A stretch of 40,481 nt of DNA from Thomasclavelia cocleata (GTDB lineage: Bacteria > Bacillota_I > Bacilli_A > Erysipelotrichales > Coprobacillaceae): positions 1 through 40,481 of the forward strand of contig NZ_FOIN01000023.1 of NCBI RefSeq assembly GCF_900102365.1, given 5' to 3'. Of this stretch, positions 32,047 to 37,090 are shown one piece after another (positions within the stretch are counted from its first letter, which is position 1; every line of letters starts with the position of its first letter). A program made the position numbers and the translations under genes. The notes below the pieces were generated by a model. That model was given only the letters and a program-made list of their open reading frames with translations. It was not told the origin of the DNA and searched no databases.

Positions 32047-32057
32047 TTCATCTAATA

Positions 32058-32079
32058 AATTCTTACAATTTTCTTAAAT
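32058..32079 (-). promoter_or_regulatory. Tandem 11-bp repeat upstream of vanR-like gene (candidate VanR box)
   Basis: Read on the minus strand, two 11-bp units lie in tandem, ATTTAAGAAAA then TTGTAAGAATT. The second unit is identical to one upstream of the vanZ-like gene (34201-34211). It ends 13 bp before the -35 box at 32093. Tandem repeats one helical turn apart are typical for OmpR-type response regulators. Confidence 0.55.
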
Positions 32080-32139: not shown

Positions 32140-32832
32140 ATGGCATATAATATTTTAGTAGTTGATGATGAACAATCAATTGCTGATTTAGTTGAATTAT
32201 ATTTACAAAATGAAAGTTATCATGTTTTTAAATATTATCATGGTCAAGACGCATTAAACAGTCTACAAAAAAATCATTACGATCTAGCGATTTTGGATGT
32301 TATGATGCCAGATCTTGATGGCTTTAGCTTATTAAAAGAAATTCGTAAAGATTATTTCTTTCCTGTAATCATGTTAACTGCTAAAAATAATGATTTAGAT
32401 AAAATAAATGGTCTAACATTAGGAGCTGATGATTATCTAACCAAACCTTTTAATCCCTTGGAGTTAGCAGCTCGAGTAAAGACTCAATTAAGACGTTATC
32501 TTCGCTATAATACTAATGAAACAATTACGAACCAGCAAATATATGATTTTAATGGTTTAATGATTAATAATGATAATCATAAGTGTACACTTTATGATCA
32601 ACCTCTAAATCTTACCCCATTAGAATTTTCAATTTTATGGTATTTATGCAGCAAAAAAGGTAGCGTTGTAACATCCGAAGAACTCTTTGAAGCTGTTTGG
32701 CAAGAAAAATATTTAGACAACAACAATACTGTTATGGCTCATGTAGCAAGATTACGTGAAAAAATGAATGAAAATGCACGTAAACCTAAATTCATTAAAA
32801 CAGTTTGGGGAGTTGGATATACAATTGAATAA
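32140..32832 (+). CDS. VanR-like response regulator (OmpR family)
   Basis: This 230-residue protein has a receiver domain with acidic pocket Asp9/Asp10, phosphoacceptor Asp53, Thr80 and Lys102. A winged-helix DNA-binding domain (about residues 135-228) ends in KTVWGVGYTIE. The segment IADLVELYLQNE-Y-VFKYY closely follows enterococcal VanR proteins. It probably activates its own operon and the vanZ-like cluster downstream through the shared tandem repeats. No vanH, vanA-type ligase or vanX is in the window, so this is not evidence of vancomycin resistance. Confidence 0.92.
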   Translation: MAYNILVVDDEQSIADLVELYLQNESYHVFKYYHGQDALNSLQKNHYDLAILDVMMPDLDGFSLLKEIRKDYFFPVIMLTAKNNDLDKINGLTLGADDYLTKPFNPLELAARVKTQLRRYLRYNTNETITNQQIYDFNGLMINNDNHKCTLYDQPLNLTPLEFSILWYLCSKKGSVVTSEELFEAVWQEKYLDNNNTVMAHVARLREKMNENARKPKFIKTVWGVGYTIE

Positions 32833-33913
32833 TTCACATTTTAAAAAAAGCCTAACTGCTAACTTATTAAAAAAAATAGCTGTCACTATTGGTGTTTCAA
32901 TAATTTTATTTATAATTTTGTTTGTCTATTCTTATGAAGTTTATCACCAATATGTTTGGCAAGAATATGATTTAGTTTATCAGCTAGCTCAACTTATCAA
33001 AGAAAATTTACTCGCAATATCAATAAGTCTTGTTGCTTTAGATACAATTATCATTTTTTGGCTTCGATATCGAGAATCATTACAATATATAGAAAAGATG
33101 TTAGAAGCAGGAAAAACTTTAGTTGAGGATAATGATAGAATGATCAGCCTTCCATTTGAATTAAAAGAAATTGAAGATCAAATGAATCAAATAAAAAAAG
33201 ATTCTTTAGATAATAAAGCAGCTATAAAACAATCTGAAAGGCAAAGAAATGATTTATTGTTATATTTAGCACATGACTTAAAAACACCTTTAACCTCAAT
33301 TGTTGGATATTTAGATCTTTTAAACACTCAGCCTAATTTATCATCAAAGGAAATGAAAAATTATATTAAAATAGCTTATGATAAATCAATTCGTTTAGAA
33401 GAACTAATAGAAGAATTTTTCTCTATTGCTAAATATAATTTAAGTGATATAACTTTAGAAAAACAATTTATTAATATATCAATCATGTTAGCACAAATAA
33501 CATATGAATTTATGCCTTTATATCGTGAAAAAAATCTTGAGTGTATTACTGAAATTGAAGATAATCTTACTCTATCTATTGATATAAACCAATTTGAACG
33601 AGTTTTTGATAATCTCATCCGTAATGCTATTAACTATAGCAATAAAGATTCAAAAATTACAATTATCGCTAAAAAAGAAAAGGATTTTATTATAATCAAA
33701 TTATCAAATCCTATTGATAATATTGATAAAAATAAACTAAAACATATTTTTGAACCCTTCGTTCGTCTTGACGAATCACGAAACAGTAAAACAGGTGGTT
33801 CTGGTTTAGGTCTTGCAATTACAAAAAAAATAATCGAGTTACATAATGGTACGATTCATGTCAATTTAGATAACAATTTAATTATATTTACTGTTAAATT
33901 ACCATTACAATGA
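32825..33913 (+). CDS. VanS-like sensor histidine kinase
   Basis: This 362-residue kinase has two membrane segments (about residues 17-38 and 62-80) around a very short outer loop of some 22 residues. A linker, the phosphoacceptor His150 in LAHDLKTPLTSIVGYLDLL, and an ATPase domain with N (NLIRNAINYS), F and GGSGLGLAI boxes follow. The organisation matches VanS-type kinases. I start it at the TTG at 32825, which overlaps the regulator's stop by 8 nt and has GGAG upstream. The nearest in-frame ATG upstream (32768) lies deep inside the regulator gene. The tiny loop suggests sensing within the membrane or through a partner protein. Confidence 0.88.
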   Translation: MNNSHFKKSLTANLLKKIAVTIGVSIILFIILFVYSYEVYHQYVWQEYDLVYQLAQLIKENLLAISISLVALDTIIIFWLRYRESLQYIEKMLEAGKTLVEDNDRMISLPFELKEIEDQMNQIKKDSLDNKAAIKQSERQRNDLLLYLAHDLKTPLTSIVGYLDLLNTQPNLSSKEMKNYIKIAYDKSIRLEELIEEFFSIAKYNLSDITLEKQFINISIMLAQITYEFMPLYREKNLECITEIEDNLTLSIDINQFERVFDNLIRNAINYSNKDSKITIIAKKEKDFIIIKLSNPIDNIDKNKLKHIFEPFVRLDESRNSKTGGSGLGLAITKKIIELHNGTIHVNLDNNLIIFTVKLPLQ

Positions 33914-33983
33914 TTCATTAAAAACTAGTAATCCAAAATCATCAATCTTGGTTTTGAAATTTGTAAAACTTAGATTGGTATTA

Positions 33984-34018
33984 TTAAGAAGTGTGGAATT
34001 CCACACTTCTTAATTTTT
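33984..34018 (+). terminator. Terminator of the vanRS-like operon
   Basis: A perfect 30-nt palindrome (33984-34013, half TTAAGAAGTGTGGAA) is followed by T6. The remaining gap up to 34189 contains no ORF that I can support. Confidence 0.8.
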
Positions 34019-34189: not shown

Positions 34190-34211
34190 TTGTAAGAAAT
34201 TTGTAAGAATT
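34190..34211 (+). promoter_or_regulatory. Tandem 11-bp repeat upstream of vanZ-like gene (candidate VanR box)
   Basis: TTGTAAGAAAT (34190-34200) is directly followed by TTGTAAGAATT (34201-34211). The first unit matches, apart from one base, the 12-bp VanR motif TCGTANGAAANT that I recall for enterococcal van promoters. A -10 element TATGAT (34251-34256) follows without a good -35, which fits activator dependence. Confidence 0.6.
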
Positions 34212-34250
34212 TCTTTAGTATATGCAAATACTTATTTTCTTTTATTTTGG

Positions 34251-34293: not shown

Positions 34294-34818
34294 ATGGTAC
34301 TAAAAAAACTGCATTTATCAAATATCATTCTAACAATTTGTTCATTGGTTTACTTTTGGATTTTGATTAAAATCATTTTATTAAAAAATGGCTTTATCAA
34401 TTATGGATATAATGCTAATTTTATCTTATTTGATTTTGTAAATCAGTATCATAATCAAGGATTAAGCCAAACTTTATTGATTAATATTTTAGGAAATCTT
34501 GCATTATTTATTCCTTTAAGTATTATTCTAATTAATTATTTTAAATCTCTTACTTGTAGCAATATCATATTTGCTAATTTTATCACAAGTTTATCATTTG
34601 AATTAATTCAACTATCAACAGGTTGGGGTATATTTGATGTTGATGATATCTTTTTAAATACTCTAGGTGGGATTATTGGTATAATAATTTATCATCTCAT
34701 TACTAAAAATAAACACAGTAAAATACCTTCAACTATTTTTCTTATTAATTTTGGAATTATTGGATATATATCTTTATATAAGTTCTATCCAATATTATTA
34801 CCATCATTCATAATATAA
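34294..34818 (+). CDS. VanZ family membrane protein
   Basis: This 174-residue protein has about five membrane segments and the VanZ-domain motif ELIQLSTGWGIFDVDDIFLNTLGG near residues 110-134. Family members give low-level teicoplanin or lipoglycopeptide tolerance in some hosts, with an unknown mechanism at the membrane. I chose the ATG at 34294, with GGAGGT 8 nt upstream, over the in-frame 34279. It leads a cluster with the 33-codon ORF and the C39-like peptidase, behind repeats shared with the vanRS-like operon. Confidence 0.88.
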   Translation: MVLKKLHLSNIILTICSLVYFWILIKIILLKNGFINYGYNANFILFDFVNQYHNQGLSQTLLINILGNLALFIPLSIILINYFKSLTCSNIIFANFITSLSFELIQLSTGWGIFDVDDIFLNTLGGIIGIIIYHLITKNKHSKIPSTIFLINFGIIGYISLYKFYPILLPSFII

Positions 34819-34831
34819 AAGGAGTTTAAAC

Positions 34832-34933
34832 ATGGAAAAATTATCTAATAAAGAAAAAGCTATTATTATTATCATTTTAGGGGCAATTACTATCTTTTCA
34901 ATTATTATGAAGCATTACTCAATGATGTTATGA
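34832..34933 (+). CDS. 33-residue membrane protein, unknown
   Basis: A small ORF sits between the vanZ-like and peptidase genes. It has a strong ribosome site (AAAGGAG, 8 nt upstream) and an ATGA overlap (34930-34933) with the peptidase start. The peptide has a charged N-terminal part (MEKLSNKEKA) followed by one membrane segment (residues 11-27) and a short KHYSMML tail. The good start signal and the coupled spacing on both sides support a real gene. It could be a sensor, a subunit for VanZ or the peptidase, or only a coupling device. Confidence 0.65.
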   Translation: MEKLSNKEKAIIIIILGAITIFSIIMKHYSMML

Positions 34934-35619
34934 AATTAAAAAAAATTTCTCTTTTTATCATTATTTTAATATTAGGTTATCTAAGTATTCAAATAACTCC
35001 TAATATATCAAATGATGATACTGATTGCCCTGAATACATCAATGAATTTGTGAAGAAAAATCCCCAAGCAAAAGAATTAAAAATTAACTATCAAAATAAT
35101 GAAAATAACGATCCCATATCATTAGAAATAGATGATGAACTTCCATTATTTATTCAGTGGGATAAACGTTGGGCATATACCCATTATGGTGATGAAATAG
35201 TTGGTACCGCAGGGTGTGGTCCAACAAGTCTAGCAATGGTAGCTATTGGACTTACTAATAACACTAAATATAATCCACGATACGTTGCCAAATATGCTAT
35301 TGAAAACGGTTATTTAGATGGAAGTAAAACAACTTGGTCTTTTATGGAAAAAGGATGTGAAGCATTTGGTTTAAAAGCCACATCAGTTCCTTTAGATAAA
35401 GCTACAATGACAAATCGGTTAAAGCAAGGTAAACCGATTATTTGTAGTGTAAGACCTGGTGACTTTACAACAACTGGACATTTTATTGTAATAACTAAGG
35501 TAGTTGATAATAAGTTTTGTATAAATGATCCAAACAATGAAGAAAACAGTCAACAAAAATGGACATATGAAAGACTTGCACCCCAAATAAAAGCTATGTG
35601 GTCATACACTTTAAATTAA
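34930..35619 (+). CDS. Membrane-anchored C39-like cysteine peptidase
   Basis: This 229-residue protein has an uncleaved anchor or signal segment (residues 5-23) and an outer C39_2-like papain-fold domain. The catalytic Cys96 is in GTAGCGPTSLAM, His184 in TGHFIVI, and Asp/Asn199-200 in INDPN; an upstream IQWDKRW glutamine (Gln76) fits the oxyanion position. All catalytic residues are present. Its substrate is unknown; peptides or wall-linked proteins outside the membrane are likely. It has no ribosome site of its own apart from sequence inside the 33-codon ORF, so translation is probably coupled. Confidence 0.85.
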   Translation: MKLKKISLFIIILILGYLSIQITPNISNDDTDCPEYINEFVKKNPQAKELKINYQNNENNDPISLEIDDELPLFIQWDKRWAYTHYGDEIVGTAGCGPTSLAMVAIGLTNNTKYNPRYVAKYAIENGYLDGSKTTWSFMEKGCEAFGLKATSVPLDKATMTNRLKQGKPIICSVRPGDFTTTGHFIVITKVVDNKFCINDPNNEENSQQKWTYERLAPQIKAMWSYTLN

Positions 35620-35869: not shown

Positions 35870-37090
35870 TTAATTTTCTTTTCTTCTAGTAATTACCATT
35901 CCAGCTACAGCTAATCCAGCCACCATTGTCATGATTCCTAATGAACTATTATCACCTGTCTTAACCGAATTTACTGGTTTATCTGGTGTTGGTTGAGGAT
36001 CAACAGGAACTGTAACAGGAGCAGTTTTAACTTCAACCTCAAATTCAGCAGTCATTGTCACATCTTCAGAACTACTAGTAGAATGATGTAATGTTTCAGT
36101 ATATACAACTACAACATTTTGTTTACCTACTCTATTTGCATCATAACCAATAATTTTAGCCATATCAGTAACATCTCGAGTATATCCTGTATCATAACTT
36201 GATGTAACTTTAATATTTAACTCATCTCCTACTGTATAAATATCTTTTCCACCGATTCCAATTCCTGTTAATTTAGACTTAGGTAACTTATCACCATATG
36301 GAATACTTACTCCAGCAATTTGTGATAAACTGCTAGCCTTTTGAGTTAATGTTTCACTTGTTTTATCTTCACGATACCAACCAGCATTACCATTTAATTT
36401 AATTGGTGTCTTTCCTAATTCATGTGCACGAATTAATGATTCTGCATAATATAAAATTGTTCCACGTTTTAAATGATATTGACTAGTAATCATTGAAATA
36501 CTTTTAATAGTTGGATGATTATATAAAATATCAAAACTAAATTCTGCATTTTGTGCTGTATTAGCAGATTGATTTTCAACTAAAATTCGACTTTCAGCAA
36601 CACCATGTTCTACTAACCAGTCATGCATACGATCACCTTCAGTCCATCCATTTTTCTTAACCCCACCAGTTACCAAAATATATGAATTTGGATATTTTTG
36701 AGCACTAGCTAAGGCTGTTTCTAACCGCCCTACTAACTCTGGTTGCATTGTTCCATCACTCTTTAATGCAAAACCTAAAACAACGAAAGCATGTGTATTA
36801 TCATTTGGTAAACCATCTGGTGCCACTCCAATACTTTCTACCATATCATTTTCAATCCAATCCCAATAATTAATTATAGATTGCCATTGATCATAATCGT
36901 CTTTAGAAACTTCTTTTAAAGTATCTAAAGTTCGTAAAACATCTGTTCTTGCACCATCTCGATAATAGCCAATTAAGCTACCAATCAATGTGTCTACTGT
37001 TTCTCCTTGGCCATGAACTGGAACAAACACACTAAAACACATCGAAAGTGTTAAAGCTAACCCAAGTATCGCTTTCCCTAATTTTTTCAT
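35870..37090 (-). CDS. Secreted, sortase-anchored DUF218 (YdcF-like) protein with Ig-like domain
   Basis: This 406-residue protein has a signal peptide (about residues 1-27), a DUF218/YdcF domain at about 95-250 (AFVVLGFALKSDG, LVTGG, ENQSANTAQNA, SQYHLKRG), a bacterial Ig-like domain at about 280-360 (GKDIYTVGDEL) and a proline-rich linker. The C-terminal sorting signal is SVKTGD, a membrane helix and RRKEN. The sorting motif departs from LPXTG but matches variants common in low-GC gut Firmicutes. YdcF proteins are often membrane-bound and linked to vancomycin tolerance or envelope work (SanA, ElyC), and a cell-wall-sorted secreted form is unusual. The start follows AAAGGAGGT. Confidence 0.87.
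   Translation of the reverse strand: MKKLGKAILGLALTLSMCFSVFVPVHGQGETVDTLIGSLIGYYRDGARTDVLRTLDTLKEVSKDDYDQWQSIINYWDWIENDMVESIGVAPDGLPNDNTHAFVVLGFALKSDGTMQPELVGRLETALASAQKYPNSYILVTGGVKKNGWTEGDRMHDWLVEHGVAESRILVENQSANTAQNAEFSFDILYNHPTIKSISMITSQYHLKRGTILYYAESLIRAHELGKTPIKLNGNAGWYREDKTSETLTQKASSLSQIAGVSIPYGDKLPKSKLTGIGIGGKDIYTVGDELNIKVTSSYDTGYTRDVTDMAKIIGYDANRVGKQNVVVVYTETLHHSTSSSEDVTMTAEFEVEVKTAPVTVPVDPQPTPDKPVNSVKTGDNSSLGIMTMVAGLAVAGMVITRRKEN

Follow-up and report, generated by a model that had tools for sequence, protein, structure and literature searches.

A conserved gene for a 33-residue membrane protein, probably coupled in translation to a C39-like peptidase gene, in a VanR-type locus of Thomasclavelia

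Between genes for a VanZ-like membrane protein and a C39-like cysteine peptidase, Thomasclavelia cocleata carries a small open reading frame (sORF) of 33 codons that is almost certainly a real, translated gene. The overall reading that we favor, at roughly even chances, is that the sORF encodes a small partner protein in the membrane and at the same time gates peptidase translation within a VanR-type stress unit. The stretch of DNA analysed here (the window) comprises 40,481 nucleotides, contig NZ_FOIN01000023.1 of assembly GCF_900102365.1, from a genome totaling 2.96 Mb. A first-pass annotation of the window had proposed that the sORF is translated into a membrane protein with a single helix and is coupled to the peptidase, a description upheld by the conservation, codon selection, pattern of Shine-Dalgarno (SD) sequences and one-helix model reported below.

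The sORF occupies positions 34832-34933 of the forward strand, from an ATG at 34832 to a TGA at 34931-34933, and encodes the peptide MEKLSNKEKAIIIIILGAITIFSIIMKHYSMML. Its SD sequence, AAAGGAG at 34818-34824, overlaps the VanZ stop codon and stands 7 nt from the ATG. With an energy of -8.4 kcal/mol, and kept in all nine Thomasclavelia genomes, it bears out the strong ribosome site noted at first pass. AlphaFold2 modelled the peptide as one helix covering residues 6-32 (pLDDT 91), with only a few residues of tail beyond it. Searches with Pfam and NCBIfam models matched the peptide to no family. Conservation by helix face was not significant (moment p = 0.31), leaving a packing surface unsupported. 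The length of the sORF carries no weight by itself: about 10 kb around the locus hold 44 ORFs of at least 30 aa, mostly spurious, and conservation is what beats chance.

That conservation is consistent throughout the genus. The C39 peptidase is present in all nine Thomasclavelia genomes examined, as are the gene order regulator-kinase-VanZ-sORF-C39 and the start, SD and frame of the sORF. The in-frame sORF upstream of the peptidase has 32 codons in one genome, 33 in five and 34 in three, invariably with an ATG behind AAGGAG and with SD energies of -7.4 to -8.4 kcal/mol. Peptides of the close relatives G003 and G004 are identical, and the set thus holds eight distinct sequences. Their alignment has ten invariant positions, among them G17, I19, I21, S23, I24, K27 and S30, while silent sites drift. 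Pairwise NG86 dN/dS fell between 0.14 and 0.75 in 27 of 28 pairs, the exception being G005 with G008 (1.13). When the same base changes were placed at random and amino-acid changes or stops were counted, amino-acid changes were observed to be fewer than under random scatter in eight of nine pairs (p 0.0005-0.0225; p 0.083 in the ninth). Codon changes in the sORF therefore indicate selection at the protein level. The checks suggested at first pass, a search of relatives for short ORFs between VanZ and C39 genes and an examination of synonymous-site bias, both came out in favor of the gene, with short ORFs found in nine of nine genomes and the dN/dS range given above. Loss of start, ribosome site or frame in relatives, which was to count against it, was seen in none of the nine. 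Short ORFs are abundant in A+T-rich DNA and no convincing sORF match was found outside Thomasclavelia, as would be expected of a chance ORF without function. Against this stand a ribosome site, a frame and codon-level selection that are conserved in every genome of the set, and we consider a chance origin extremely unlikely. We take the gene as real because its start, SD, frame and neighbors are conserved and its codons appear to be under selection, not because of ORF length.

The junction with the peptidase gene points to coupled translation. The sORF stop and the peptidase ATG at 34930 share a 4-nt ATGA, as the first-pass annotation stated, and the same overlap is present in eight of the nine genomes. 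The ninth (G007) has a TAA stop followed by a 3-nt gap to the peptidase start, without overlap. Spacing typical of termination-reinitiation (an overlap or a very short gap) is thus found in all nine. SD energy before the peptidase start was -0.6 in the window and ranged from +1.4 to -2.5 across the nine genomes, equivalent to no SD. As a control, the best start within 150 nt was scored at 90 further C39 loci, of which 16 belong to the family and 74 are named; 86 of them had an SD of -5 or stronger, with a median of -9.3. The same generous scoring of six named Thomasclavelia loci gave only -0.5 to -4.0. Since the peptidase has no SD in nine of nine genomes though 86 of 90 relatives have one, the peptidase gene most likely receives its ribosomes from the sORF, a dependence that we infer from the missing SD only. 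Translational coupling from sORF to peptidase is, by the sequence evidence, very likely.

Gene pairs overlapping by 4 nt are described as tightly coupled in translation in excerpts of PMC10666635, where close pairs of E. coli (-8 to +10 nt) encode subunits of heteromeric complexes in 30.4% of cases versus 6.8% for distant pairs. The sORF-C39 pair is like other overlapping termination-reinitiation pairs in its ATGA overlap and in a downstream gene that appears poorly able to initiate for itself. It is unlike them in that the C39 gene is entirely without an SD; in Firmicutes, an SD for reinitiation is usually retained at the downstream gene, according to excerpts of PMC6728339. These excerpts also report that SD removal cut re-initiation in four of five E. 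coli pairs and that one pair whose SD was very weak initiated independently; SD-less coupling may thus be inefficient and the dependence not absolute. The SD-less peptidase start of all nine genomes and the ATGA overlap of eight would equally suit a pure translational coupler or leader, where the act of translating the sORF counts and its product does not. Such an element would hardly account for sORF residues that are invariant across eight aligned sequences while silent sites drift. Moreover, no RNA hairpin hiding the peptidase start was found at the junction, where predicted folding did not exceed that of mononucleotide shuffles in any of the nine genomes. We therefore regard a coupler devoid of a functional product as improbable, and favor a coupled gene whose product matters.

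The coupled gene (34930-35619, forward strand) encodes a 229-aa C39-like cysteine peptidase (PF13529, 54.8 bits, cut-off 24) with an N-terminal membrane helix at residues 4-22 of the model. Mean pLDDT of the model was 74.6, with residues 22-30 and 77-94 under 50. The presumptive Cys-His-Asp triad (C96, H184 and D200) is invariant in all eight aligned sequences. Among solved structures, the pseudomurein endoisopeptidase PeiR comes nearest both in sequence (E 7.6e-4) and in fold; the model superimposes on it with Z 16.3-16.4 and rmsd 2.2-2.3 A over 141-143 residues at 20-21% identity, aligning C96 with PeiR Cys90. The two proteins are thus alike in fold and in the aligned catalytic-site Cys; unlike PeiR, the peptidase described here is a membrane-anchored bacterial protein without an ABC transporter domain. 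Because the N-terminal helix is single and Pfam detected no ABC exporter domain, the peptidase domain is predicted to lie outside the membrane. An extracytoplasmic enzyme acting on wall peptides would fit the VanR context, though likeness of fold gives no substrate. One candidate role for the sORF, that of a split-off peptidase anchor, was ruled out, as the peptidase retains its own helix at residues 4-22.

The sORF adjoins a peptidase whose fold also matches double-glycine proteases, and the first-pass annotation offered it as a precursor or ligand for the peptidase. A substrate or propeptide of this kind is poorly matched by the sequences. The double-glycine motif was sought in the nine sORFs and is absent from all of them, and GA pairs, which occur in seven of the nine genomes and so are not universal, all lie inside the membrane helix. 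Few sORF residues follow that helix, and the putative substrate and peptidase both depart from double-glycine C39 exporter systems, the one having no GG and the other no exporter fusion, with a peptidase domain predicted on the far side of the membrane. The suggestion thus finds no support, and we judge a substrate role very unlikely.

Upstream, the VanZ-like membrane protein (174 aa; 34294-34818, forward strand) matches PF04892 with 69.4 bits (cut-off 30.1) and the vanZ-A model NF033125 with 30.4 bits, below the cut-off of 250. The sORF begins 13 nt after the VanZ stop and, among the loci examined, occurs only where VanZ sits between kinase and peptidase; genera that have a two-component system (TCS)-C39 arrangement with no VanZ there are also without the sORF. 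This co-occurrence fits a subunit of VanZ, as proposed at first pass, or a subunit of the peptidase, and both readings survive it. It is also what would be expected if the sORF merely added a helix to VanZ and its coupling to the peptidase reflected gene order alone. Judged by its hydrophobic segments, however, VanZ here is already complete, on a par with known five-helix VanZ proteins. Elsewhere, outside this locus type, 41 VanZ ORFs at 39 loci were checked for a small ORF in the next 150 nt that combines an SD with a hydrophobic stretch, and none had one; one locus (L107) has a hydrophobic 54-codon frame after VanZ, without an SD. A search for VanZ relatives on plasmids gave one weak match only. 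In G004 / VE202-01 (L147 / L062:5354-5680), a frame change interrupts VanZ, with sORF and peptidase intact. The break may reflect decay or an error in sequencing; unless it is the latter, it does not favor a strict VanZ-subunit role. A helix donated to VanZ with incidental coupling is in our estimation rather unlikely, although less so than the other alternatives weighed here.

The genes that precede VanZ belong to a VanRS-type two-component system. A VanR-family response regulator (32140-32832, forward strand; NF033117, 394.3 bits, cut-off 350) is followed by a histidine kinase (32825-33913, forward strand) that is named VanS-like only, because its score with NF033091 (336.7 bits) is below the NCBIfam VanS cut-off of 400. 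The kinase gene starts at a TTG that overlaps the stop codon of the regulator gene, and its longest frame would begin with an ATG at 32768. By hydropathy, the kinase has two membrane segments and an outer loop of about 23 residues, close to the short loop read at first pass. A terminator-like hairpin with a 14-bp stem and a T run follows the kinase gene (33983-34014, forward strand). Beyond it, upstream of VanZ, lies a VanR-type double box, TTGTAAGAAATTTGTAAGAATTT, with an 11-bp period (34190-34212, forward strand), aligned in nine of nine genomes. The pattern GTAAGANNNTTGTAAGAA occurs exactly once per genome in eight of nine and always upstream of VanZ, G002 differing at the end; the reversed pattern gave one match each in two of nine genomes, and the evidence is accordingly the fixed position and not rarity alone. 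Box 1, TTGTAAGAAATT, fits 11 of 12 positions of the footprinted VanRG consensus (T/C)CGTANGAAA(T/A)T given in an excerpt of PMC4405338. A second double box lies upstream of the response regulator on the reverse strand (32057-32079; TTCTTACRATTTTCTTAA, aligned in nine of nine), with a core, TTAAGAAAATTGTAAGAA, at 32060-32077. This core has no second match in the T. cocleata genome with up to 1 mismatch allowed, although a reversed control also gave 1 match. Control of the VanZ-sORF-C39 unit by the VanR-family regulator is, from the VanR score and the VanZ-upstream box, a highly probable arrangement. In the Clostridium ramosum-like G002, kinase and VanZ are separated by an unrelated gene of opposite orientation that looks by eye like a GH25-type lysozyme (L066:2938-3951), yet the VanZ-upstream box is kept.

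The locus resembles the van accessory genes under VanRS control (vanZ, vanY, vanW) in its regulator above the VanR cut-off, VanS-like kinase, VanR-type 12-bp direct repeats and VanZ-family output gene. It differs in that its operon has no van ligase, in its C39 peptidase and coupled 33-aa protein, and in a VanZ that scores 30.4 against the vanZ-A cut-off of 250. Small single-helix modulators of kinases exist, MgrB being an example. Co-location with a VanS-like kinase would allow the sORF product to bind this short-looped kinase as a feedback partner or ligand sensor, and a sensor partner offsetting the short loop was among the first-pass proposals. That proposal is weakened, as kinases with similarly short loops (five examined) stand directly upstream of the C39 peptidase gene in genera lacking the sORF. 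Within the window, furthermore, the sORF belongs to the output unit, set apart from the kinase by the terminator-like hairpin and its own promoter box. A kinase modulator is thus a doubtful explanation that we would give a small chance, and the sORF is better viewed as a partner of the output proteins.

Distribution of the sORF is narrow. A single-sequence search of 294 genomes of the order recovered six Thomasclavelia genomes at E 5.3e-8 or better and three more divergent ones at 0.0016-0.07, with a best non-genus E of 0.027. A profile search of 395 genomes of the class, two of them of the genus, gave a best non-genus E of 4.5e-4. The non-genus matches lie mostly inside long frames, consistent with chance hydrophobic matches; the one exception (G021, L041) is a small gene that stands among other neighbors (see the last paragraph). 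Across 80 named C39 loci, an SD-bearing small hydrophobic ORF touching the peptidase start was found at six of six Thomasclavelia loci, which come from the same genomes as the nine-genome set and are not independent of it, and at none of the 74 others, where L155 has a weak candidate 89 nt from the peptidase. Novel small proteins of C. ramosum detected by mass spectrometry have 20, 31, 44 and 58 aa in an excerpt of PMC7903761; by length, the 34-aa sORF ortholog is not among these. The peptidase itself is present in 26 of 43 genomes of the family, 17 of them outside the genus. Several of the 17 have the kinase and then the peptidase directly, without VanZ or sORF (e.g. L012-L015 and L018-L022). 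Therefore VanZ and sORF were probably gained together, by insertion into an older TCS-C39 pair.

Pairing of VanR-type regulators with C39 peptidases extends well beyond the family. A regulator-type gene lies near C39 at 25 of 74 non-genus named loci, and 20 of the 25 were examined. At least 15 (L151, L164, L170, L175, L179, L188, L191, L197, L201-L203, L206, L214, L218 and L224) have a regulator 54-65% identical to that of the window beside a kinase and C39, in either gene order; L170 ends before the kinase. Their hosts are Lachnospiraceae and other Bacillota, and eight of ten regulators tested pass the VanR cut-off. These loci were chosen for likeness to the window's peptidase and are not a census. 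The visible flanks of the 15 cassettes were free of ligase, racemase and VanXY relatives. Of 16 loci in other genera examined for a VanR box ahead of C39, only L151 and L224 had a strong one (20 and 21 of 22); L164 reached 18, and the remaining 13 scored 15-17, which is background level. A VanR-VanS-C39 peptidase cassette may be widespread and is apparently undescribed. If this reading is right, the cassettes with no van ligase nearby suggest a role for VanRS-type sensing besides changing the peptidoglycan terminus. No paper listed in the literature searches treated VanZ, C39 and a small membrane protein together.

The T. cocleata genome does contain van genes elsewhere. On an unlinked contig (C64; L234:4229-7617), one gene encodes a ligase scoring 506 against the VanG cut-off of 495 and another a VanT-G racemase scoring 510.7 against a cut-off of 460; a third product, VanXY-like, falls short of its cut-off. 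A VanR-type double box upstream of these genes scores 13/15; the VanR-like regulator of the window may have them as a second target. Such a ligase is present in five of the nine Thomasclavelia genomes. Its upstream box can be recognized clearly in G000 and G002 and weakly in G004 and G006, and could not be assessed in G003. The four genomes without the ligase still keep the VanZ-sORF-C39 unit, which therefore is independent of it.

Collectively, the data suggest how the unit might work. Ribosomes would load at the sORF SD, terminate and re-initiate at the peptidase start, such that the peptidase would be made only when, and about as often as, the small protein. The latter would probably be a stoichiometric membrane partner, either a subunit or an assembly or retention factor, of the membrane-anchored C39 peptidase or the adjoining VanZ. 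A physical partnership with one or the other, the two being about equal, has in our view slightly less than an even chance. As a response to cell-wall or glycopeptide stress, the VanR-family regulator probably switches on the VanZ-sORF-C39 unit, whose peptidase would act outside the membrane. A bolder and more tentative proposal, unlikely to hold in every part, is that Thomasclavelia extended a VanR-VanS-C39 cassette with VanZ and a dedicated 33-aa protein into one membrane complex of fixed stoichiometry, with a peptidase translated only through the small protein, that edits the cell surface under glycopeptide-like stress. If right, an obligatorily coupled small membrane protein and cysteine peptidase join the VanR-type output genes in common gut bacteria. 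The locus would also be a clean, testable case of a peptidase dependent on a gene of 33 codons, which automated annotation may overlook.

Two further observations concern other genes. A different small single-helix membrane protein of 35-47 codons was found in five of six genomes of another genus, g9 (L248:1501-1614 and L249-L252), where its neighbors, named by eye, are an XRE-type regulator and a pyruvate-kinase-like gene; it has a weak relative in the T. cocleata genome (C79:27760-27858, L253). Downstream of the peptidase in the window, the reverse strand encodes at 35870-37090 a DUF218 protein (PF02698, 76.4 bits) with, by eye, an apparent signal peptide and a C-terminal anchor tail.
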